DNA of 40,376 nucleotides, taken from the IMG/VR virus record IMGVR_UViG_3300017605_000587, positions 1 to 40,376 of that record; one strand, written 5' to 3'. The position numbers and the translations under genes were made by a program. The notes beneath the pieces are model-generated. The model saw only the letters and a program-made list of their open reading frames with translations, searched no databases and was not told the DNA's origin. This DNA is from a virus. Below are positions 2,909 through 33,485 of this stretch, in pieces (position 1 is the first letter of the stretch; every line of letters begins with the position of its first letter).

Positions 2909-4157
2909 GGCAAGGGAGGATAAAGGGGACATCGTCGGCCTGGCTGCCGACATCAAGGCTAGGGGCCTCCTGCAGCCAATCACCGTCAAGTCTGACTTCA
3001 CCCTCATGGCTGGAGAGCGACGGTATCTGGCGCATCGCCACAATAGTGCAGATACGATCTGGGTGATTGTGCGCGGTGGCGAAGATGAGACCACCGCATC
3101 TGAAATCGAGCTGGTCGAGAACGTCGCTCGGAAGGACCTGCTATGGCCTGAGCGAGCCAAGCTTGAGTTGAAGATATGGAACCTCAAGGTCAAGCAGCAT
3201 GGTGAGTATGATCCATCCAAGAACCCCAATGGATGGTCTAACATCAAGCAAGGTAAGCTGGTTGGCGCTGACGAGTCTACTATACGTCGGCGTCTGGAGC
3301 TGGCTGAGACAATGGCTGAGGTTCCCGACCTCGAGCTCGATACCTGCAAAACCGAGGATGAGGCTTGGAAGGTCAACTCCAAGCTGAAGGAGCGCGGCGT
3401 TGAGCTGGAGATGCTCAAGAAGGTGCCTCCGTCAGTTAGGACCGCCATTGACAAGGCCTCGGAGCACTACATCATTGGCGACTTCTTCGAGCAGGTTAAG
3501 ACCCTGGATGCGGAGGTTGCCGACTTTGCCGAGGTCGATCCGCCCTATGGCGTCGATCTTGATAAGCGCAAGAGCCGCAACGCCGACGATCGGCCTATGG
3601 AGGAGTATCAGGAATGGTCGGAAGGTTCCTACCCAGCCCTATTCAAGCAGACGGCAACCCTAGTCTATACCAGCCTCAAGCCCAACGCATTTGCTGTGTT
3701 CTGGTATGGGATGAGCTGGCACACGGAGGTTATGGAAATCCTGCGCTCTTCAGGCTTCACTATTCCGGATATTCCTGCTGTATGGACCAAGGGCGAGGGA
3801 GGTCAGACTGCCTCGCCGGACACGACTTTAGGGAGCTGCTACGAACCATTTTTCCTAGCGCGGAAAGGACAGCCGAAGCTCGCAAAGCCCGGTCGAGGGA
3901 ACGTGTTCAACTTTCCCGGCCTCCAGAAAAAGGTTCATCCGACTGAGAAGCCTATCGCTCTGCTCGAGGATATCATCAGAACGATCTGCTTCCCTGGCAG
4001 TTTCGTGTTGGTGCCCTTCCTTGGCAGTGGCGTAACCCTCCGGGCAGCCTACAAGCTAGGCCACACCGGCTTGGGCTGGGACCTATCGCAAGAGCACAAG
4101 AATGGCTTCCTAAAGCGGGTCGCTGAGGATAAAGGAAATGCAAAGCAGAAAGTGTGA
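2859..4157 (+). CDS. ParB-like domain fused to DNA methyltransferase
   Basis: Residues 1 to about 110 form a ParB/Srx-type domain (IPLAQVKIPKDRARED at the start, then LMAGERRYLAH and ELVENVARKDL). A linker helix region follows, then an S-adenosylmethionine-dependent methyltransferase. The catalytic motif IV is DPPY at residues 227-230, and the SAM-binding motif I is FLGSG at 387-391, after HPTEKP. Motif IV before motif I is the beta-class order of N6-adenine or N4-cytosine enzymes. Such ParB-methyltransferase fusions are known in phages and usually lack a partner restriction gene, as here. Likely roles are protection from host restriction or marking of replicated DNA. AGGGGAAG precedes the ATG. 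The 3' end overlaps the GIY-YIG gene by 20 bases. Confidence 0.88.
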   Translation: MDLRQIPLAQVKIPKDRAREDKGDIVGLAADIKARGLLQPITVKSDFTLMAGERRYLAHRHNSADTIWVIVRGGEDETTASEIELVENVARKDLLWPERAKLELKIWNLKVKQHGEYDPSKNPNGWSNIKQGKLVGADESTIRRRLELAETMAEVPDLELDTCKTEDEAWKVNSKLKERGVELEMLKKVPPSVRTAIDKASEHYIIGDFFEQVKTLDAEVADFAEVDPPYGVDLDKRKSRNADDRPMEEYQEWSEGSYPALFKQTATLVYTSLKPNAFAVFWYGMSWHTEVMEILRSSGFTIPDIPAVWTKGEGGQTASPDTTLGSCYEPFFLARKGQPKLAKPGRGNVFNFPGLQKKVHPTEKPIALLEDIIRTICFPGSFVLVPFLGSGVTLRAAYKLGHTGLGWDLSQEHKNGFLKRVAEDKGNAKQKV

Positions 4158-4629
4158 TCACTGCGGAGAAGTAAAGGACGTATCTAAATTTAGGGGATAT
4201 ACATGCTCAACATGTAGATATAGAATGTTTAAGGATAGTAGTAAGCGATCCACTGAGTATTATAGAGATGCACCATCGTGGGGTGGATGCACAGAAAGGA
4301 TTATGGATATAACTGGCCTTGTGTTTATAAATCCAGGTGTCTATCTTTTATACAGTGATAATCTCCTTCTTTACATTGGATCATCTAAAAATGTTATAAG
4401 GCGTGTGACCCATCATAGGACTTCATGTAGAAAGGCTCATGGAAGGATAGGTAATATATTCAATAGGGTCGAGTATATTCGAGAGGATAATATATATGCT
4501 ATGAGGGCTTTGGAAAGGAAGCTTATAGCAGAGCTTCAGCCGCCTTACAATAGATATGGTGTAAATAATCGACTAAGTTCGGAAGATTTGGATGATATGC
4601 TACATACGGTGAGGGCATCTCATGTCTAG
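4138..4629 (+). CDS. GIY-YIG endonuclease with N-terminal zinc ribbon
   Basis: A 163-residue protein. C6-x2-C9 and C23-x2-C26 form a small zinc ribbon. The GIY-YIG domain then has G67-V-Y69 and Y79-I-G81, with R88, E126 and N138 in the positions of the catalytic residues, so an active single-strand or double-strand nicking nuclease is expected. Free-standing GIY-YIG genes of this kind are commonly homing endonucleases. The gene is visibly AT-rich with many AGG, ATA and TAT codons, unlike the GC-rich genes on both sides, which points to recent acquisition. It is wedged by overlaps of 20 and 8 bases between the methyltransferase and the first half of the split DNA polymerase. Confidence 0.88.
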   Translation: MQSRKCDHCGEVKDVSKFRGYTCSTCRYRMFKDSSKRSTEYYRDAPSWGGCTERIMDITGLVFINPGVYLLYSDNLLLYIGSSKNVIRRVTHHRTSCRKAHGRIGNIFNRVEYIREDNIYAMRALERKLIAELQPPYNRYGVNNRLSSEDLDDMLHTVRASHV

Positions 4630-6244
4630 CCCATGGGAAGAAGGTGATCCTAACTCCAAACTGCTGGTTCTCGCCGAGGCGCCCAGCCGAATGGAGATGA
4701 AGCTGAACCGACCCTTGATCGGTCCAGCTGGCGAGGTATTCAACGACTGCCTACACACCTCAGGCATTGCTCGCCGCCAGTGCTATATCCTCAACCTCTG
4801 GCCGTTCCAGGTCACCAAGGATAAGGCTGGGCACTTCTGGCACGGCGGTGAGTGTCTGTGGAATAGCCGGGGCTTCACCGAGGCGGGTGTCCAAGCCTAT
4901 ATGCCCACCATCGAGAAGATCAGGGCGTGTGGGGCTAACAACATCCTCACACTGGGCCAGCAGGCTATGTCTGCCCTGACCGGCGATAAGCGGCCAATCA
5001 TGAAGTGGCGCGGTAGCCCGCTGTGGTCTCCTATCGTAGACCGGAAGTTCATGCCTACCGTACACCCGGCTGCTACGATCCACGGAGTGTATGTCTGGCG
5101 ATATCTGATATCCGGAGACATGCAGAAAATCGCCCGTGATTTGGATGATAGGCAGTTAGTTCTGCCATCCCGGAACCTTATAATAAGGCCAACGTACTCA
5201 GACTTTTACCACTATATTGAAGCCTGTCGCGAAGCCAAGCGGGTCTGCACCGACATCGAAGTTGTAAACCATCAGGTTTCTTGCTTCAGTCTGGCCTACA
5301 AGAAAGACGAGGCTATGACTGTGCCCTTGGTCGGCCCCACGGGCGATCACTACTGGGATGAGGACAATGAGATTGCGCTGTGGAAGGCATATGCTGGCCT
5401 CCTCAGCGATCCCGAGGTGATGAAGATCAATCAGAACATAGTGGGCTTCGACGCTGTGTTTCTGTTGCAGCAGTGTAACATCCACATCAAGGGACCCTTG
5501 GGCGATCCTATGATCGCGCAGCACATCATCTACCCGGACTTCAAGAAGGGTCTGGACTTCATCGCGAGCATGCATACGAGGGAGCCCTACTGGAAGGACG
5601 ATGGAAAGATATGGAAGAACCCAAACATAGACTGGAACACCTTCCAGCGGTACTGCGGGAAAGACGCTTGTGTGGCCCTCGAAACCTGGGACGTTCTATC
5701 TCAGGAGATGACCGATGGCGGCTACTGGCCCACATACAACAGGACTGTAAGAATGGCTGGACCCTTAGCCTACATGGCAGTAACTGGGCTCGCGGTGGAC
5801 CGAGAAGGCCTCGCGGCTACCAAGGTAAAGCTCGACAAGGCGATTGCCGAGAAGCAGGCCAAGCTGAACGAGTTGGTGGGCTTCGAGCTGAACGTACAGA
5901 GCCCGAAGCAGTGCATCACCTACTTCTACGAGACCCTAAAGCTCCCTCCGTACAAGAATAGGGAGGGTGGCTACACTACTGACGACAAGGCCATGAGCCG
6001 CATCTACCGCAAGGCAGGGGTGGGTGCGGCCCAGGCTAAGGTCGTCCAGGAGCTTAGGGCGCTGATGAAACTCAAAGGAACATACATAGATGTGGAACTT
6101 GATACTGATAACCGGCTGCGCTGTAGCTGGAACCCTCGGGGTACGTGGACTGGCCGGCTATCTAGCGGACAGACTCTGATGGGCACAGGCATGAACCTGC
6201 AGAACCTTCACCCTGAGTTTAAATCCTTCATTGTGGCAGGATAA
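4622..6244 (+). CDS. polA: DNA polymerase I family A, N-terminal half (UDG-like domain + 3'-5' exonuclease + polymerase start)
   Basis: 540 residues. Residues 1 to ~180 resemble family 4/5 uracil-DNA glycosylases: AEAPSRME, RPLIGPAGEVF, TLGQQAMSALTG and HPAATIHG. The iron-sulphur cysteines are not evident and GEAPG is altered to AEAPS, so activity is uncertain. The DEDDy exonuclease follows: D211-x-E213 (Exo I), N272...F276-D277 (Exo II) and Y344-C-G-K-D348 (Exo III). The polymerase begins with a thumb region and reaches TGRLSS at 510-515 and NLQN at 525-528. The protein then ends at SFIVAG, where family A enzymes normally continue through one short loop into motif A. That motif starts the gene at 7356. 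GAGGG precedes the ATG. This half cannot polymerise alone; I infer it assembles with the second half. Confidence 0.92.
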   Translation: MSSPWEEGDPNSKLLVLAEAPSRMEMKLNRPLIGPAGEVFNDCLHTSGIARRQCYILNLWPFQVTKDKAGHFWHGGECLWNSRGFTEAGVQAYMPTIEKIRACGANNILTLGQQAMSALTGDKRPIMKWRGSPLWSPIVDRKFMPTVHPAATIHGVYVWRYLISGDMQKIARDLDDRQLVLPSRNLIIRPTYSDFYHYIEACREAKRVCTDIEVVNHQVSCFSLAYKKDEAMTVPLVGPTGDHYWDEDNEIALWKAYAGLLSDPEVMKINQNIVGFDAVFLLQQCNIHIKGPLGDPMIAQHIIYPDFKKGLDFIASMHTREPYWKDDGKIWKNPNIDWNTFQRYCGKDACVALETWDVLSQEMTDGGYWPTYNRTVRMAGPLAYMAVTGLAVDREGLAATKVKLDKAIAEKQAKLNELVGFELNVQSPKQCITYFYETLKLPPYKNREGGYTTDDKAMSRIYRKAGVGAAQAKVVQELRALMKLKGTYIDVELDTDNRLRCSWNPRGTWTGRLSSGQTLMGTGMNLQNLHPEFKSFIVAG

Positions 6245-6245
6245 A

Positions 6246-6491
6246 ATGGCAGAAGATAAGTTAACCCCCGAGTATGCGAACGATCTAATCCTGGCTGAGT
6301 TCAAACGGGCCAGGCAGAAGTTCGCCCCTATGCGCGGCCCTCACGAGGGCTACGCCGTGATCCTCGAGGAGCTGGACGAGGCGTGGGATGAGATCAAGGC
6401 GAACAACATTCCCAGGGCACGGAAGGAAATGCTGCAAGTGGCTGCCATGGCCCTTGCATTCTTGGTGGAGGTAGGAAATGGTCCCGAGTAA
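6246..6491 (+). CDS. MazG-like nucleotide pyrophosphohydrolase (small)
   Basis: An 81-residue all-helical protein starting one base after the polymerase stop, with AGGA ahead of ATG 6246. The motif EELDEAWDEI matches the EExxE metal-binding helix of MazG/all-alpha NTP pyrophosphatases, and a second helix carries KEMLQVAAMAL. Phages use such proteins to hydrolyse unwanted nucleotides or to lower alarmone levels. Its length is about that of a single minimal MazG-like unit. It overlaps the lysozyme gene by 14 bases. It is one of two genes that interrupt the DNA polymerase. Confidence 0.72.
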   Translation: MAEDKLTPEYANDLILAEFKRARQKFAPMRGPHEGYAVILEELDEAWDEIKANNIPRARKEMLQVAAMALAFLVEVGNGPE

Positions 6492-7359
6492 AATCATCCA
6501 GCCTATGGTGGTCGATTTAAGCCATCACAACGTCGTCAACAGCTTTCAGCTCGCCAAGAACTGGGGGATCAGGGCGGTCATCCACAAGGCATCTGAGGGG
6601 ACAACCATCGTTGATCCCACCTACAAGACCAGACGAACCATGGCTAGGGATGTGGGCTTCCTGTGGGGGGCCTATCACTTCTTTCGTCCAGGCAATATTC
6701 AGCGACAGGTGGAGTGGTTTCTGGAGTGTGCTAACCCTGACGATCACACCCTCATGGTGCTGGATCACGAAGACTCTGGATGCTCAGCCGCTGACGCCGA
6801 GATGTTCTTGCGTCTCCTCGAGGATAAGATCAAACGTAAGCCCGCTCTGTACAGCGGCAACGTGATCAAGGATCAGTTGGGCAACCAGATTAACGATTAT
6901 CTGGGCTCGTGCCGACTGTGGCTGGCCCAGTACGGGGATAGTCCAAAGTGCCAAGCCAGCTGGGACAACTGGTGGCTGTGGCAGTACACTGGGGATGGCA
7001 TCGGACCTAAGCCACAGGTGGTGCCTGGCATCGGCGAGGGCAACAATCCCCAAGCGCCTATCGACGTGAATAGCTTCGCGGGGACCGTTGGCGAGCTACA
7101 GGAGAGTTGGGCAGGTGATATGTCTATCGGACCCTACGAACCTAACGCCTCTGAGATCACCGCCTTTATCCAGAGCGCTATCACCCTGCTGGGCTATGCC
7201 GATCTGGCAATCGATGGCCGCTATGGCGTCAAGACCCGCGATGCGATCTGCAAGTACCAGCTAGATAACGAGCTGCAGATCACCGGCCTGCCAGATCAGC
7301 CTACAATTGAAGATGTATGCGATGAGGTTCAGAAGTGGAATGTACGCAGACGCAAATGA
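6478..7359 (+). CDS. GH25 lysozyme (endolysin) with peptidoglycan-binding domain
   Basis: 293 residues. The GH25 (Chalaropsis-type) muramidase core opens with MVVDLSHHN, has the catalytic D96-x-E98 (LDHEDSG), and later WLAQYG, WWLWQYTGDG and a terminal IDVNSFAG. A PG_binding_1-type domain spans about residues 225-285 (LLGYADLAIDGRYGVKT). There is no signal peptide, so export should depend on a holin; a holin-like gene is encoded far away at 16650-16856. GGAGG precedes the ATG. The gene lies between the two halves of the DNA polymerase and ends in an ATGA overlap with the second half. An endolysin inside a replication operon, rather than in the lysis cluster, is unusual. Confidence 0.9.
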   Translation: MVPSKIIQPMVVDLSHHNVVNSFQLAKNWGIRAVIHKASEGTTIVDPTYKTRRTMARDVGFLWGAYHFFRPGNIQRQVEWFLECANPDDHTLMVLDHEDSGCSAADAEMFLRLLEDKIKRKPALYSGNVIKDQLGNQINDYLGSCRLWLAQYGDSPKCQASWDNWWLWQYTGDGIGPKPQVVPGIGEGNNPQAPIDVNSFAGTVGELQESWAGDMSIGPYEPNASEITAFIQSAITLLGYADLAIDGRYGVKTRDAICKYQLDNELQITGLPDQPTIEDVCDEVQKWNVRRRK

Positions 7360-8357
7360 TTATGATGGAGTTTGATCTAGCCGGCGCCGAGTGGGTTGTG
7401 GTTGCCTATCTGTCAGGCGACGCCAACATGCTCGGCGTCGTTGCTAGTGGCAAGAGCCCTCACGTGGTTACGGGCAGCCTAATCACCAGCGTTCCTGAAG
7501 ACCTGGTTATCGAGGAACACAAAGCAGTCGGGTCCAATACAGACGAAAACACCATCAGGGAGATCAGAGACACTAAGCTTCCGCATCTGGTTGACATGGC
7601 CGAGAAGGGGCTCATATTTCTGCCCCGTGTAATGTCTATCCGCCAGGCAGGCAAGAAGTCGAACCACGGCCTTAACTACAACATGAAATATAGGCGCTTT
7701 GCGCTTGAGAACGAGATAAGTGAGGCGGATGCCATGCCACTGGTAGAAGCCTACACAACAGTCGCCTATCCAGGGATACCTAAATGGCATGAGTCTATTC
7801 GGCAGGAGATGCGAGACCACGACCGGACTATGACCAACTGCTTCGGCCGAAAGGTTCGGCTGCTGGGAGAGTGGGGTTCGGAGCTGTTCGATCAGGCCTA
7901 CAGCTTCAAGCCCCAGTCGACTGTTGCTGACAGTTGTCTGCAGGCGATGTGTCAGGTGTATGAGAACGAGAGCGACCGCTTTCGCAAGGTCCGCCTGGGC
8001 GCTCAGGTTCACGACTCTCTGATGATTCTGCATCCTATTCCGACCAATTGGAACGAGTGGGTTGGTCTAGCCATGACCGTACAGGACATCAAGGGCTATA
8101 TGCGGCCCCCACTGGTGTATGAGGGCCGCGAGTTTAGGCTGGGCTGCGATCTGAAGATCGGCTTCGACTGGGGCCACATGCGAGAGGTCAAGACGTCAGA
8201 GGACTATCCTGAGAAGACCGCTGCCGCTATTAGGTCCGCCGTAGAAGCGGCGCGGGAGGAGCGCGCCTTGGCAGCTGCATCACCTGAAATCCCCCTTGAT
8301 CCTGGTCCTGAACCGGAGTGGTTGCCCCAGTTATCTGAACCCCTGAGCCCTGTGTAG
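7356..8357 (+). CDS. polA: DNA polymerase I family A, C-terminal half (motifs A, B, C)
   Basis: 333 residues from an ATG that overlaps the lysozyme stop (ATGA); a GTG at 7335 would only add residues lacking homology. Motif A is D7-L-A-G-A-E12 (catalytic Asp and steric-gate Glu), followed by AYLSGD. Motif B is R96-x3-K100-x3-H104-G-x2-Y108, aligning with E. coli R754, K758, F762 and Y766. Motif C is V-H219-D220-S221. His at the 762 position and Ser instead of Glu after the motif C Asp are departures from E. coli Pol I. Together with 4622-6244 it makes one near-complete enzyme split in the loop before motif A. The C-terminal ~45 residues are Ala/Pro-rich and lie antisense to the hydrolase gene. 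Confidence 0.92.
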   Translation: MIMMEFDLAGAEWVVVAYLSGDANMLGVVASGKSPHVVTGSLITSVPEDLVIEEHKAVGSNTDENTIREIRDTKLPHLVDMAEKGLIFLPRVMSIRQAGKKSNHGLNYNMKYRRFALENEISEADAMPLVEAYTTVAYPGIPKWHESIRQEMRDHDRTMTNCFGRKVRLLGEWGSELFDQAYSFKPQSTVADSCLQAMCQVYENESDRFRKVRLGAQVHDSLMILHPIPTNWNEWVGLAMTVQDIKGYMRPPLVYEGREFRLGCDLKIGFDWGHMREVKTSEDYPEKTAAAIRSAVEAAREERALAAASPEIPLDPGPEPEWLPQLSEPLSPV

Positions 8358-9408
8358 AATTGGATAGACCACTATATATCTTGCCCAGGCGCTGGCTATC
8401 AGCACCACCACCGAAGATTGGCTCCAGCAGAGGTCCCTTGGTGCCAAAGAGATATTCTTGCAGCGTGGGTATCTTGGTAGAGGTATTGGAGGCCTCAACT
8501 ACAGGATTACTGCCTCCCCCTTGTGGGGCGTCGGGAGATCGATTGAACTGACTGATGTCGTTATTGCCTTCACCGACATCAGTAGTGGGGTTGCTCTGAA
8601 AGCCAGGAGCGGTAGTATGAACGTCCATATCGACCAAGGGCCCACGATCAGCACTATGCCGCCCTTCAGGGGCAAGAAAGGCGTGGCTCCGATCCCTGAG
8701 GACTGGCGACCCATCAGGATTGGCATACTTCCCGCCATTAGCATCATAGCCGGTCCAGTTGACCCAGGAACGATACTTATTGGGTTCCTGGTCTCGCAGC
8801 TTTTCCATGACGGGCTCGTGGGCAAGGAAGTGAGTGGCCCCGTCTACCCAATCGTTGACCTGACCAGTATCCCTCATTTCGGCAAGCCTCGAGAGTGCCT
8901 GGAACTCAGGGAGCTGGACAATCTGCGGCAGACGCCGATACTGAGCTGGCTCGATGGTCGGCTGGTAGATACGCTGGGATACATGCTCCCCGAGATCGTT
9001 ACCTTCCTTGTCCGCCCTATTTATCATCGCACCCAGCACATTCCTGGCCGATGCGAAATCGGGCCTTCCCTCGACGCTATCAGCTTCGAGGAGACTCATA
9101 GCGGCTGCTTTCTGATACTTGGACAGCTGACTCCAAGCTGGGTCCTTTCCCCAATAACCGCTGGGTGACCTATCAGCAATCTCCTGAGCGGACCACTGCT
9201 TGACATATGGGCTGCCGGGACGGTAGAGATTTTCAGTCTCTTCCTTCGGAACGACAGGCCTCGAAAATTCCTTTACCCGCCCAGAATAGAGCTCCTGATT
9301 ATCCTGCATCTGGCTGTAGCGGCGCTCGAACTCCTGCTGGGTGTATAGGTCCCGCAGACTGTCTCGGCGCTTCCCGATCGTTCCTGGATCAACGCGTACC
9401 AACGGCAT
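8230..9408 (-). CDS. Virion protein with SleB-like cell-wall hydrolase domain
   Basis: 392 residues, the last gene of the late block. The middle part (about residues 100-215) reads like a SleB/hydrolase_2 peptidoglycan hydrolase: SLLEADSVEG, VLGAMINRA, IYQPTIEPAQYRRL, then GATHFLA. A virion-borne hydrolase helps DNA cross the cell wall at infection, and the position after three large internal virion proteins agrees with that. The N-terminus is charged and the C-terminus (GGGADSQRLGK onward) looks disordered. Start at ATG 9408 has GGGAGT upstream and overlaps the previous gene by 20 bases. The 3' end runs 128 bases antisense into the polymerase half gene. The domain call is by motif resemblance. 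Confidence 0.72.
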   Translation of the reverse strand: MPLVRVDPGTIGKRRDSLRDLYTQQEFERRYSQMQDNQELYSGRVKEFSRPVVPKEETENLYRPGSPYVKQWSAQEIADRSPSGYWGKDPAWSQLSKYQKAAAMSLLEADSVEGRPDFASARNVLGAMINRADKEGNDLGEHVSQRIYQPTIEPAQYRRLPQIVQLPEFQALSRLAEMRDTGQVNDWVDGATHFLAHEPVMEKLRDQEPNKYRSWVNWTGYDANGGKYANPDGSPVLRDRSHAFLAPEGRHSADRGPLVDMDVHTTAPGFQSNPTTDVGEGNNDISQFNRSPDAPQGGGSNPVVEASNTSTKIPTLQEYLFGTKGPLLEPIFGGGADSQRLGKIYSGLSNSTQGSGVQITGATTPVQDQDQGGFQVMQLPRRAPPAPLLRRT

Positions 9409-11536
9409 TCTGTACTCCCTTCTGCATGGCAGGCGGCAGATGATCATTAATCAGCCGCTCCATGACATCAGGCATACTACCAACCATGTGTAGGATCGCC
9501 TGCAGCTTTGCAGCCTGGGTAGCCATCTTGTCCGTGCTGATGATGGCCGCCTGGGCGACGCCTGGACGCATCAGGGAGCCCACACTGGCATTCATTACCA
9601 TCATACCCGCTAGAGTGGGGATTAGGCCTGCGCCGTGTGAGGCAGCTCCAGCAAGCCCAAGCGTCAGGGCTCCCTTCACAGCTTTCTCTAAACTCCCAGC
9701 TCCTTTGAGAATAGAAGCACGAGCCATAAAAGTGCTGATATCAGCAACAGGAGCAGTAGCCACACTTTCGGCGACACGAGCCAGCTTTTGAATATCCTCA
9801 ATACTGGAACCAGTACCACGGATCATCTCCTTCAGGGCTTCGTATCGCCCGCTGCCAGGTCGGTCAAGGCCCAGTTCTTTGTTGAACTTTTCAGAAGACC
9901 ACTTGAAGGGTTGTCCATCTTCACTAGTCACAGCCTTTTGCCAAGCGGACTCCAGCTTGACCCTGGCAGTCTGCTTGATAGGATCATCTCCTACAAGTGC
10001 ACGCATTTCCTGCACTTTCTTGGCGCTGGTGAGCTGTGAGATCGTATCAGCCATCTCCTCAGGGCTCTTACGGCCCGGCAGGATCTTGCCAGTAGCAAAC
10101 ACCTCTCGATCGAGCTTGCCAACATCCTTAGCGGTTTCGTTAGTGAATGTCAGAAGGCCAGTCTTAAAATCACTGTCAGCCTTAGCCATCAGCTTGGCGG
10201 CCGGATGACTGCTGCTCTTCAGGGCATCAGTTGCAGCCTTTCTCAGATCATTTAGGTAGGGCATCGACGTGCCGGTCCTGCGAGATACGTCCCTGATCAT
10301 GTTCTCCAGATAGGGATCGAGGGCCTTAACGTCGACTGTGCTGATCTTGTCTGGCATATCCTCGAAGCTGCGAAGTAGCTTTAGCTGAGGAGTGGTAAGG
10401 AAGGCTTTCGGACCCAGACTGAGACCTTCAATCTTGGTTAGGGCCTCTTCAGCAGCGGCCTTGATACCCTTAGTTGAGATGATAGGGCCAGCCTCGTAGC
10501 CGACGCGCATAGCATGTTCGGTCTGAGCCTGTACCTTTGTGGCGAAGTCAGCGAACTTACGAGTACCCGCCTCAGCGGCCTCTCGGCTGATCTCAGACGT
10601 GGCTTTGCCGCCTGCAATCTTGCCGAATATGTCGTTCTGAGCGGCTATCAACTGCTTAGCCTGCTCCTTGGCAGCCGATTGGGTAGACCAGCCGACTAGG
10701 GGCATACGGCCGAAGATGTTGACCATCCTGCCCGCGAGGGTGCCTGGCATATTGGCAGGGCCGATATCCACGCCAATGCTACCAGCCTCCTTCAGCAGTT
10801 CAGCCGAGTTGGGAGGCATGCGCAGGAGTTTGGACAGAAGCCACTTGCCTGGGCCAAGCACTATGGGTAGAGCAACCTGGGTTGCGCCAGTCAGAGCGCT
10901 ATCAGCCAATGCCTCCCTGGTATGGTTGAGGGAGTTAGCCAGCAGACCTGGATCTTTGCCAGTCGCCTTGTGGGTCTGATACAGGCTGTCGTAGATGTCG
11001 GCAGCGTAGTTGCCGGCCATAGAGCCGAGGCCAGTGCCTATCATCGTTCCGCCGGGGATCGGCGAGCCCGCACCGACTAGGCCACCACCTGTAGCACCGA
11101 CGCCACGCAGGATGCCTCTCATATTCTGGGGCGTGGTCGATTGCTTCAGATAGTTGGTGATTGCACTGGGTGTGAAGGCGTTGACGATGTCTGCACCGCG
11201 ATTGAATGCCCTACCAGGCCCAGACGGTAGCCCTGGCGTAGCCCCCATCTCGCTCGCCGGACCAACCAGTGGATTGACATAGCGATCATCGCCTGTCGGC
11301 CCCTGGGGCACATCCTCGCCAGCGGTCAGCGGCAGATTATCTAGAGAGGTGTCCCTCGGGGTGCCGCCAGTGGTGATGGGCTCACGCGCCGGCCTCTCGC
11401 CACGCTTGCTAGCCTCCTGATCAGCCTCCATCTTCTTGATGAGGGCATCCCAGTCGATGGGCTGTGCGCCTTTGTCCGCTACGTCCTGAGGCTCGGCGCG
11501 GCTCTCGAGTGTAATCTCGCGAGGATCATCTGCCAT
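9389..11536 (-). CDS. Large internal virion protein (715 aa)
   Basis: The N-terminus is charged and disordered (residues 1-100). A Gly/Ala-rich hydrophobic stretch of about residues 135-185 (GATGGGLVGAGS, MIGTGLGSMAG) resembles glycine-zipper segments of ejection proteins. Long amphipathic helices follow, with a second hydrophobic Gly/Ala stretch near residue 640. Size, strand and position in the three-gene tail end of the late block fit an internal core or ejection protein that forms a conduit through the envelope. A GTG at 11551 is also in frame, but GGAG eight bases before ATG 11536 favours the shorter form. No enzymatic motif was seen. Confidence 0.75.
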   Translation of the reverse strand: MADDPREITLESRAEPQDVADKGAQPIDWDALIKKMEADQEASKRGERPAREPITTGGTPRDTSLDNLPLTAGEDVPQGPTGDDRYVNPLVGPASEMGATPGLPSGPGRAFNRGADIVNAFTPSAITNYLKQSTTPQNMRGILRGVGATGGGLVGAGSPIPGGTMIGTGLGSMAGNYAADIYDSLYQTHKATGKDPGLLANSLNHTREALADSALTGATQVALPIVLGPGKWLLSKLLRMPPNSAELLKEAGSIGVDIGPANMPGTLAGRMVNIFGRMPLVGWSTQSAAKEQAKQLIAAQNDIFGKIAGGKATSEISREAAEAGTRKFADFATKVQAQTEHAMRVGYEAGPIISTKGIKAAAEEALTKIEGLSLGPKAFLTTPQLKLLRSFEDMPDKISTVDVKALDPYLENMIRDVSRRTGTSMPYLNDLRKAATDALKSSSHPAAKLMAKADSDFKTGLLTFTNETAKDVGKLDREVFATGKILPGRKSPEEMADTISQLTSAKKVQEMRALVGDDPIKQTARVKLESAWQKAVTSEDGQPFKWSSEKFNKELGLDRPGSGRYEALKEMIRGTGSSIEDIQKLARVAESVATAPVADISTFMARASILKGAGSLEKAVKGALTLGLAGAASHGAGLIPTLAGMMVMNASVGSLMRPGVAQAAIISTDKMATQAAKLQAILHMVGSMPDVMERLINDHLPPAMQKGVQNAVGTR

Positions 11537-32454: not shown

Positions 32455-32989
32455 ACGGTTCCTAGGCCTAGCCCGTCATATCAGCCAGTGGAGCAAGGAT
32501 AGCAACACTTGCTGCGGAGCAGTGATCGTTCGGCCTAACAAGTCGATCGCCTCACTGGGGTTCAATGGCTTCCCTCAGGGCATCGAGGATAACCCTGAGT
32601 GGCTGGTGAAGGACCCTACGCCACAGGATAGACACGAGAAGCTGAAGCGCGTCATCCATGCAGAGATGAATGCGCTTCTGTTCCTGCCAGAGAGGCAGCC
32701 CAACCTGATTATGTATGTGTGGCCGATGCTGCCTTGCCATCGATGTGCGGTTCATATTATACAGGCCGGGATTGCTCGGGTGATTGCACCTAAGTGCGAG
32801 CATGAGAGGTGGCAGGATAGTATGAACCTCACAAGGCAGCTGTTTCAAGAGGCGAAAGTTGCATCAGAGGAGATCGACTATGAAGATGTCTATAGCGGTG
32901 ACCGCCCTCGTGGCGGTGGTGCTGGGGGCTCCCTCATCCTGGGGAGCGGACAAGGGGGGACCGGCGGTCCGCCAAGGTACGATCTTTGA
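32441..32989 (+). CDS. Deoxycytidylate (dCMP) deaminase, GTG start
   Basis: 182 residues. The start GTG 32441 gives the usual family N-terminus (HWHRRFLGLARHISQWSKD) with GAGGG upstream; longer readings to 32138 run through the RNR gene. Zinc motifs: HAEMNALLF (His and catalytic Glu) and PCHRC. It converts dCMP to dUMP on the way to dTMP. The last 37 residues (SGDRPRGGGAGGS and on) are Gly-rich and read in the 110 bases that also encode the signal peptide of the next gene, so the true end function of this tail is unclear. Confidence 0.87.
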   Translation: MHWHRRFLGLARHISQWSKDSNTCCGAVIVRPNKSIASLGFNGFPQGIEDNPEWLVKDPTPQDRHEKLKRVIHAEMNALLFLPERQPNLIMYVWPMLPCHRCAVHIIQAGIARVIAPKCEHERWQDSMNLTRQLFQEAKVASEEIDYEDVYSGDRPRGGGAGGSLILGSGQGGTGGPPRYDL

Positions 32990-33485
32990 TGACTATGATC
33001 GACCTCTTCCGAAGAGTCCACCGCAAGGTTTCGCATACGTCGGAGTTACGGCCGGTGCTGGCGTGGCTCATCTTGATCTTGAAGATCTGCGTGATAGCGA
33101 TCATAGTTGGCTGGCTGGTGGGTACATTGGTTACTGGATCAGACCTGCGAATACGTTCTTCGGTCTTGGGGCCGAGGGTGACTTCGCTTGGCAGGACTTC
33201 AAGTTCCTGCGAAAGGCCGAGGATGATGTACTCTCTGATAGGAGTCGCTGGACTGCCAGCGCTCGGTTCAGGGGTGGCATCTACCTCACCGACAATCTGA
33301 TCGCGTATGGAACAGTGGGAGCGGGCTTCACAGATGTGGCGGATCCTGGTCCTGTGTATGGTGGTGGGCTTGAGCTATCACTTAGCCGTGTGGCTATCCG
33401 GGCCGAAGTCCTGAGGTATGACTTCTCGGGAGATGGTGCGGATCAGACGGTGGGCCGAGTTGGCCTGACGTTCAAGCTGCCTTGA
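32880..33485 (+). CDS. Outer-membrane beta-barrel protein with signal peptide
   Basis: 201 residues. ATG 32880 has GGAG upstream. A signal peptide (MKMSIAVTALVAVVLG, cut after SSWGA) leads to a short linker and an eight-strand-like barrel: GFAYVGVTAGAGVAHLDLED, SWLAGGYIGYWI, FFGLGAEGDFAWQDF, WTASARFRGGIYL, IAYGTVGAGFTDV, YGGGLELSLSRVAIRAEVLRY, and a terminal VGRVGLTFK strand. Opacity/OmpA-like barrels of this sort are typical alphaproteobacterial outer-membrane proteins. In a phage it could alter the host surface, for example to exclude other phages. Overlaps the deaminase by 110 bases. Confidence 0.8.
   Translation: MKMSIAVTALVAVVLGAPSSWGADKGGPAVRQGTIFDDYDRPLPKSPPQGFAYVGVTAGAGVAHLDLEDLRDSDHSWLAGGYIGYWIRPANTFFGLGAEGDFAWQDFKFLRKAEDDVLSDRSRWTASARFRGGIYLTDNLIAYGTVGAGFTDVADPGPVYGGGLELSLSRVAIRAEVLRYDFSGDGADQTVGRVGLTFKLP

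Follow-up and report, generated by a model that had tools for sequence, protein, structure and literature searches.

A family A DNA polymerase encoded as two chains, cut beside motif A, in a lineage of viral contigs

The only family A DNA polymerase that we detected in the viral lineage described here is encoded as two separate chains, cut beside a catalytic motif. Replicative polymerases are seldom found interrupted in the catalytic core, and the known cases often involve a homing element. Our starting point, referred to below as the window, was the whole 40,376-base virus record IMGVR_UViG_3300017605_000587; with 26 IMG/VR contigs it makes up a set of 27 distinct split polymerases, which we compared with their 11 nearest contiguous relatives. 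Very probably, a single old gene fission split the enzyme into two chains that are translationally coupled and come together again as one polymerase, and the site between the two genes came to house cargo.

The split locus lies on the plus strand at the end of an early module, in which it follows, in order, a PD-(D/E)XK nuclease, a Sak4-like ATPase, a DUF669 protein, a ParB-methyltransferase fusion and a GIY-YIG gene. The gene for the N-chain (4622-6244, 540 amino acids) is followed after a 1-base gap by a small MazG-like ORF (6246-6491), which overlaps by 14 bases an endolysin gene encoding a GH25 lysozyme with a peptidoglycan-binding domain (6478-7359); this gene in turn shares an ATGA overlap with the gene for the C-chain (7356-8357, 333 amino acids), all four being on the plus strand. 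A preliminary description of this DNA had given the same coordinates and junctions, and they are correct to the base. The N-half terminates in ...NLQNLHPEFKSFIVAG-TAA, its last palm strand (the FIVAG region) and stop codon occupying 6230-6244, and relatives have the same end point. From the ATG at 7356, the C-half opens with MIMMEFDLAGAE. An alternative in-frame start, a GTG, is present at 7335, but relatives such as L005, L012, L013, L015, L016 and L028 have their sole start 4-5 codons before the motif, which supports the ATG as the likely start of the C-half.

At its 3' end the C-half runs into a convergent minus-strand ORF (8230-9447), sharing 128 bases with it (8230-8357); L004 and L006 show comparable overlaps. 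Upstream of the N-half, and overlapping its start by 8 bases, is the GIY-YIG nuclease gene (4138-4629), with a possible zinc-finger start. We considered and rejected a gene split by this putative homing endonuclease, as the GIY-YIG gene does not lie in the gap and the loci compared contain no homologue of it. Elsewhere in the record, an ORF at 32859-33485 has a weak match to an outer-membrane beta-barrel family (PF13505, below the cut-off); its neighbours are a deaminase-like ORF and a class II ribonucleotide reductase.

The features of a family A (Pol I-type) polymerase, namely PF00476, motifs A, B and C, and TGR/NLQN, are found only when both chains are combined. The PF00476 matches of the two chains are complementary: of the 381 profile positions, the N-half (amino acids 396-517) covers 3-125, and the C-half (6.4e-17) covers 206-341 and, more weakly, 149-206. 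A search of the whole 40,376-base record with PF00476 found no second polA. Profile comparison matched the N-chain to Klenow up to TGRLSS (it also matched phrog_17 at 5.7e-40), and the C-chain to Taq Pol I from motif A through motif C.

The N-chain begins with a uracil-DNA glycosylase (UDG) superfamily domain that the preliminary description had missed (4640-5074, amino acids 7-151; PF03167, 6.6e-13). It matches family 4 UDG structures and family 4/UdgX-like proteins, and its motifs EAP... and HPAA are conserved; catalysis by this domain is putative. Next comes a 3'-5' exonuclease with motifs I (DIE), II (NxxGFD) and III (YCGKD) at 5246-5665. Its catalytic residues DxE, D and YxxxD are all present, and the acidic residues and the Tyr are conserved in 26 of 26 aligned N-chains. 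The thumb and the first part of the palm (TGRLSS, NLQN and the strand FIVAG) complete the chain. The C-chain supplies motif A (EFDLAGAE, 7368-7391; E5, D7, A11 and E12 invariant in 26 C-chains), the fingers with motif B on the O-helix (IRQAGKKSNHGLNYN, 7638-7682), and motif C (QVHDS, 8004-8018; H, D and S invariant in 26 C-chains). Thus the earlier claim that both halves keep intact catalytic motifs holds for the exonuclease and polymerase motifs alike.

Motif B carries a His that aligns with position 762 of E. coli Pol I, by alignment in all 27 split polymerases and in all 11 contiguous relatives (the window and L004-L045). Published surveys recognize Phe, Tyr or Leu types at this position, and one filters for a single ORF with F, L or Y (PMC9069017). 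Surveys with such a requirement would miss the lineage twice, because its halves are separate and because its residue 762 is His.

Single-chain AlphaFold2 models had a pLDDT of 89.1 for the N-chain and 93.6 for the C-chain, and the top PDB fold matches of both were Pol I structures. The C-chain model opens directly with the motif A strand, which starts at residue 2. The end of the N-chain model is less confident (block means 69-79), as would be expected for a strand modeled without its partner, although this is no proof of a partner.

All 27 split polymerases are broken in the same place, a tight turn immediately before motif A. In this set the N-chain ends on FIVA(G/D) or shortly past it, and the C-chain begins shortly ahead of the motif A strand, most C-chains having their start 1-9 residues before motif A. 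All 11 contiguous relatives read through the turn; for example, L030 has FIVPDEGYVFFEMD where the window has FIVAG at the end of one chain and MIMMEFD at the start of the other. About one or two residues were lost from the turn at fission, in agreement with the earlier statement that almost nothing is missing. The close relatives L004, L005 and L006 have this break, with gaps of 1642, 865 and 462 bases. The 27 split sequences group as a single clade, with support of 100/98, in a maximum-likelihood phylogeny of the polymerase domain, and the contiguous forms fall outside it; within the split lineage, C-chain identity drops to 38%. The preliminary description had held that related phages with an intact polymerase would speak against its reading. 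Such relatives do exist, but they are the outgroup of the split clade, and what they provide is a date for the fission, not an argument against it.

Stop codons of the N-chain differ among loci (TAA, TAG and TGA), and in three loci (L015, L026 and L031) the N-chain carries an extra tail of about 10-70 residues; both kinds of variation are expected of a free end. In 24 of the 27 loci the start of the C-chain either overlaps the ORF before it or directly adjoins it, which suggests that translation of the C-chain may be coupled to that of this ORF.

We also looked for this arrangement outside the set. No host or prophage copy was confirmed in a scan of genome contigs, no isolate phage matched window positions 4000-8800 at the DNA level, and a plasmid search with an N-half returned ordinary Pol I-like matches only. 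Four stand-alone viral proteins of about 300-330 amino acids in BFVD (A0A5Q2W9E7, A0A2D0ZPU5, A0A7G5CGP6 and A0A8S5QSE8) match the C-chain over nearly their whole length, a hint of further split polymerases. A second and different split, between a UDG-exonuclease ORF and a polymerase ORF 0.2-0.9 kb apart, occurs in L010 (Caulobacter phage Kuura), L030, L034, L036 and L037.

Another check on whether the two halves are maintained is the pattern of substitution. For pairs with finite dS, dN/dS was 0.04-0.11 for the N-half and 0.07-0.20 for the C-half, several other comparisons being saturated at synonymous sites; by this measure both halves are under strong purifying selection. The distance matrices of the two halves correlate at 0.81, while the best of 2,000 permutations reached 0.35, and on this evidence the halves have a shared history. 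Conservation across the chains extends to the exonuclease motifs, to TGRLSS/NLQN and to all three polymerase motifs (A, B and C); both halves look functional, with polymerase activity as the likely outcome. The preliminary judgement that the gene is functional rather than decayed is therefore borne out by the break conserved in 27 loci, the dN/dS of about 0.04-0.2 at unsaturated sites, the intact motifs, the co-inheritance of the halves and their confident separate folds.

In contrast to the break, the gap varies widely. It ranges from a gene overlap without insert in L042, a form that could be a sequencing frameshift, to 3.4 kb, and different sub-lineages carry different contents. In nine loci it is occupied by one or two small ORFs (L018, L019, L022, L025, L027, L028, L029, L039 and L040), and the gap of about 206 nt in L022 is filled by its ORF. 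A GH25 lysin is found in the window and in L004, L012, L013 and L015, and an M15-type lysin in L014 and L016 (by Pfam) and in L026, L043 and L044 (by homology). Gaps of the window, L006, L012, L013, L014, L024 and L033 hold a MazG-like ORF; ThyX is present in L031, L043 and L044, and a subtilase in L035. Neither an intron nor an intein nor a homing gene was detected in the window gap. The small ORFs compared between sub-lineages (the L018, L019 and L039 types) had no detectable relationship to one another, indicating that the site has been refilled more than once.

The preliminary description had drawn attention to MazG-like and GH25 genes inside a polymerase. The GH25 assignment is solid (PF01183, 3.6e-31, with PF01471, PG_binding_1, at 1.5e-8), but MazG is a motif-level label: a firm assignment failed by Pfam, NCBIfam and PDB, the ORF matches PHROGs of unknown function, and what is conserved in seven homologues is the pattern HEGxxVxxEExDExWD. 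The MazG-GH25 insertion does recur, in L012 and L013, but as one of several gap contents, the lysin being of M15 type or absent elsewhere.

From these observations we infer the following history. An ancestral contiguous gene would have been cut where an exposed palm turn joins the strand ending in FIVA(D) to the motif A strand, and the fission may have been begun by a homing endonuclease (the HNH ORF of Vibrio phage ICP2 sits about 20 codons from the split). The two genes would then be translated separately, with the start of the window C-chain coupled in vivo to the stop of the preceding gene through the ATGA overlap. The chains would associate and fold together non-covalently, each supplying one of two neighboring palm strands, to give an active polymerase/3'-5' exonuclease. 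The gap would be a tolerated landing site in which small genes, and then lysis and nucleotide-metabolism genes, were gained and exchanged, the fission having probably preceded most insertions.

A bolder proposal, which we consider doubtful, is that selection favors the two-chain state as such. By translating the motif A chain separately, in coupling with the lysis and nucleotide genes of the gap, the phage would be able to tune or delay the assembly of active polymerase relative to lysin production. Family A polymerases would have a general fission point in the palm turn preceding motif A, and at least two phage lineages would have made use of it independently.

Several quite different readings of the locus were weighed against two reassembling chains. 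It is very unlikely that only one half matters, with the N-chain acting as an exonuclease/UDG, the C-chain a regulatory or vestigial palm-fingers fragment, and a host polymerase replicating the phage. The domains can work apart, as the loci with a UDG-exonuclease ORF separate from the polymerase gene indicate (L010 and the four others). However, catalysis jointly requires motifs A, B and C, which the C-chain carries, and TGRLSS/NLQN, which the N-chain carries; all of these are conserved, and the halves remain in one locus and co-evolve.

Less probable still is a group I or group II intron that carries unusual cargo and splices itself out, leaving a mature mRNA that encodes a contiguous polymerase. 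Group I introns with homing genes occur in several phage polymerase genes, an intron was suspected by the authors who described phage MEP401 (PMC10580990), and in ICP2 the HNH ORF lies within the gene, after NLQN but before motif A and upstream of the split. Yet Rfam gave no match in window positions 4000-8800 at E<=1, no intron at the gathering threshold in nine relatives including MEP401 and none at E<=0.5 in five more; the power of this search is limited, as it also found no intron in ICP2, whose gene is annotated as joined. Independently of Rfam, the gaps range from overlap to 3.4 kb with unrelated contents, the ORF-filled gap of L022 leaves little space for a ribozyme core, and L042 has no gap at all. 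Moreover, C-chains have their own start codons, and some N-chains extend past the junction.

Phages with fractured polymerase genes and split inteins are known, such as MIJ3 with its family B polymerase (PMC6892783), but joining of the two chains here by protein trans-splicing is extremely unlikely: there is no space for intein halves when most N-chains finish no more than a few residues from FIVA(D) and the start of most C-chains lies so close to motif A. A decaying gene or a chimeric assembly has an equally negligible probability; a lone contig could be mis-assembled, as the preliminary description had cautioned, but the same break in 26 further contigs excludes an artefact, both halves are under purifying selection, and the record holds no substitute PF00476 polymerase.

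If two reassembling chains are the correct explanation, a two-chain family A enzyme has been maintained through deep divergence. The locus also illustrates how splitting can turn an essential gene into an insertion site for endolysins and other cargo. The turn beside motif A would also be a natural and already optimised split point, useful for split-polymerase sensors or controllable polymerases.

One close comparison is with contiguous UDG-exonuclease-polymerase phages (Desulfofustis phage LS06-2018-MD01, MW202489, Microcystis phage Mel-JY34 and L045), which have the domain order and His 762 of the window and share its ParB-methyltransferase neighbor, with Sak4 in L030, L034 and L045. Unlike the window, they have an unbroken polymerase, and none of the cargo genes, including any lysin or MazG-like homologue, was found in the flanks examined.

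Our literature search for split family A phage polymerases found one paper, on the Methylophilales phages MEP401 and MEP402 (Zobellviridae; L063; PMC10580990), plus split family B and Pol III cases. As here, the N gene of these phages encodes the exonuclease and the first part of a family A polymerase, and the C gene runs from motif A. MEP401 is cut in the same turn, its N-chain ending in FLSRYGE and its C-chain beginning with MILNADAKALEW, with a small ORF between. It differs in having a very distant polymerase, no N-terminal UDG and a single 77-aa ORF of unknown function, published as a possible intron. In our tree MEP401, an isolate belonging to a different family, sits on a very long branch and its placement is not firm. 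HMO-2011, among its closest relatives, has a contiguous polymerase, so the MEP401 fission is probably independent of that in the window lineage.

ICP2 resembles the window in that its family A gene is interrupted between NLQN and motif A, but the insert (L065, 1966-2500) holds an HNH homing gene and the gene is annotated as a joined, spliced CDS. We rejected the idea that the two sites coincide, because translation of the exons places the ICP2 interruption about 20 codons upstream. In the T4-like phages 25 and 44RR, the family B replicative polymerase is encoded by two genes, gp43A and gp43B, and in phage 25 the two halves co-purify and are active as a polymerase (reviewed in PMC2988022), a precedent for the proposed reassembly of the chains here. 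Those polymerases belong to another family, and their gap holds a seg homing endonuclease gene or untranslated intercistronic sequence instead of lysis or nucleotide genes. Split family A polymerases of the MEP401 type and split, active family B polymerases such as that of phage 25 are thus already known; new here are how deeply the split is rooted, its single origin, the exact turn, the non-homing cargo with lysins, and evidence for joint selection on the halves.
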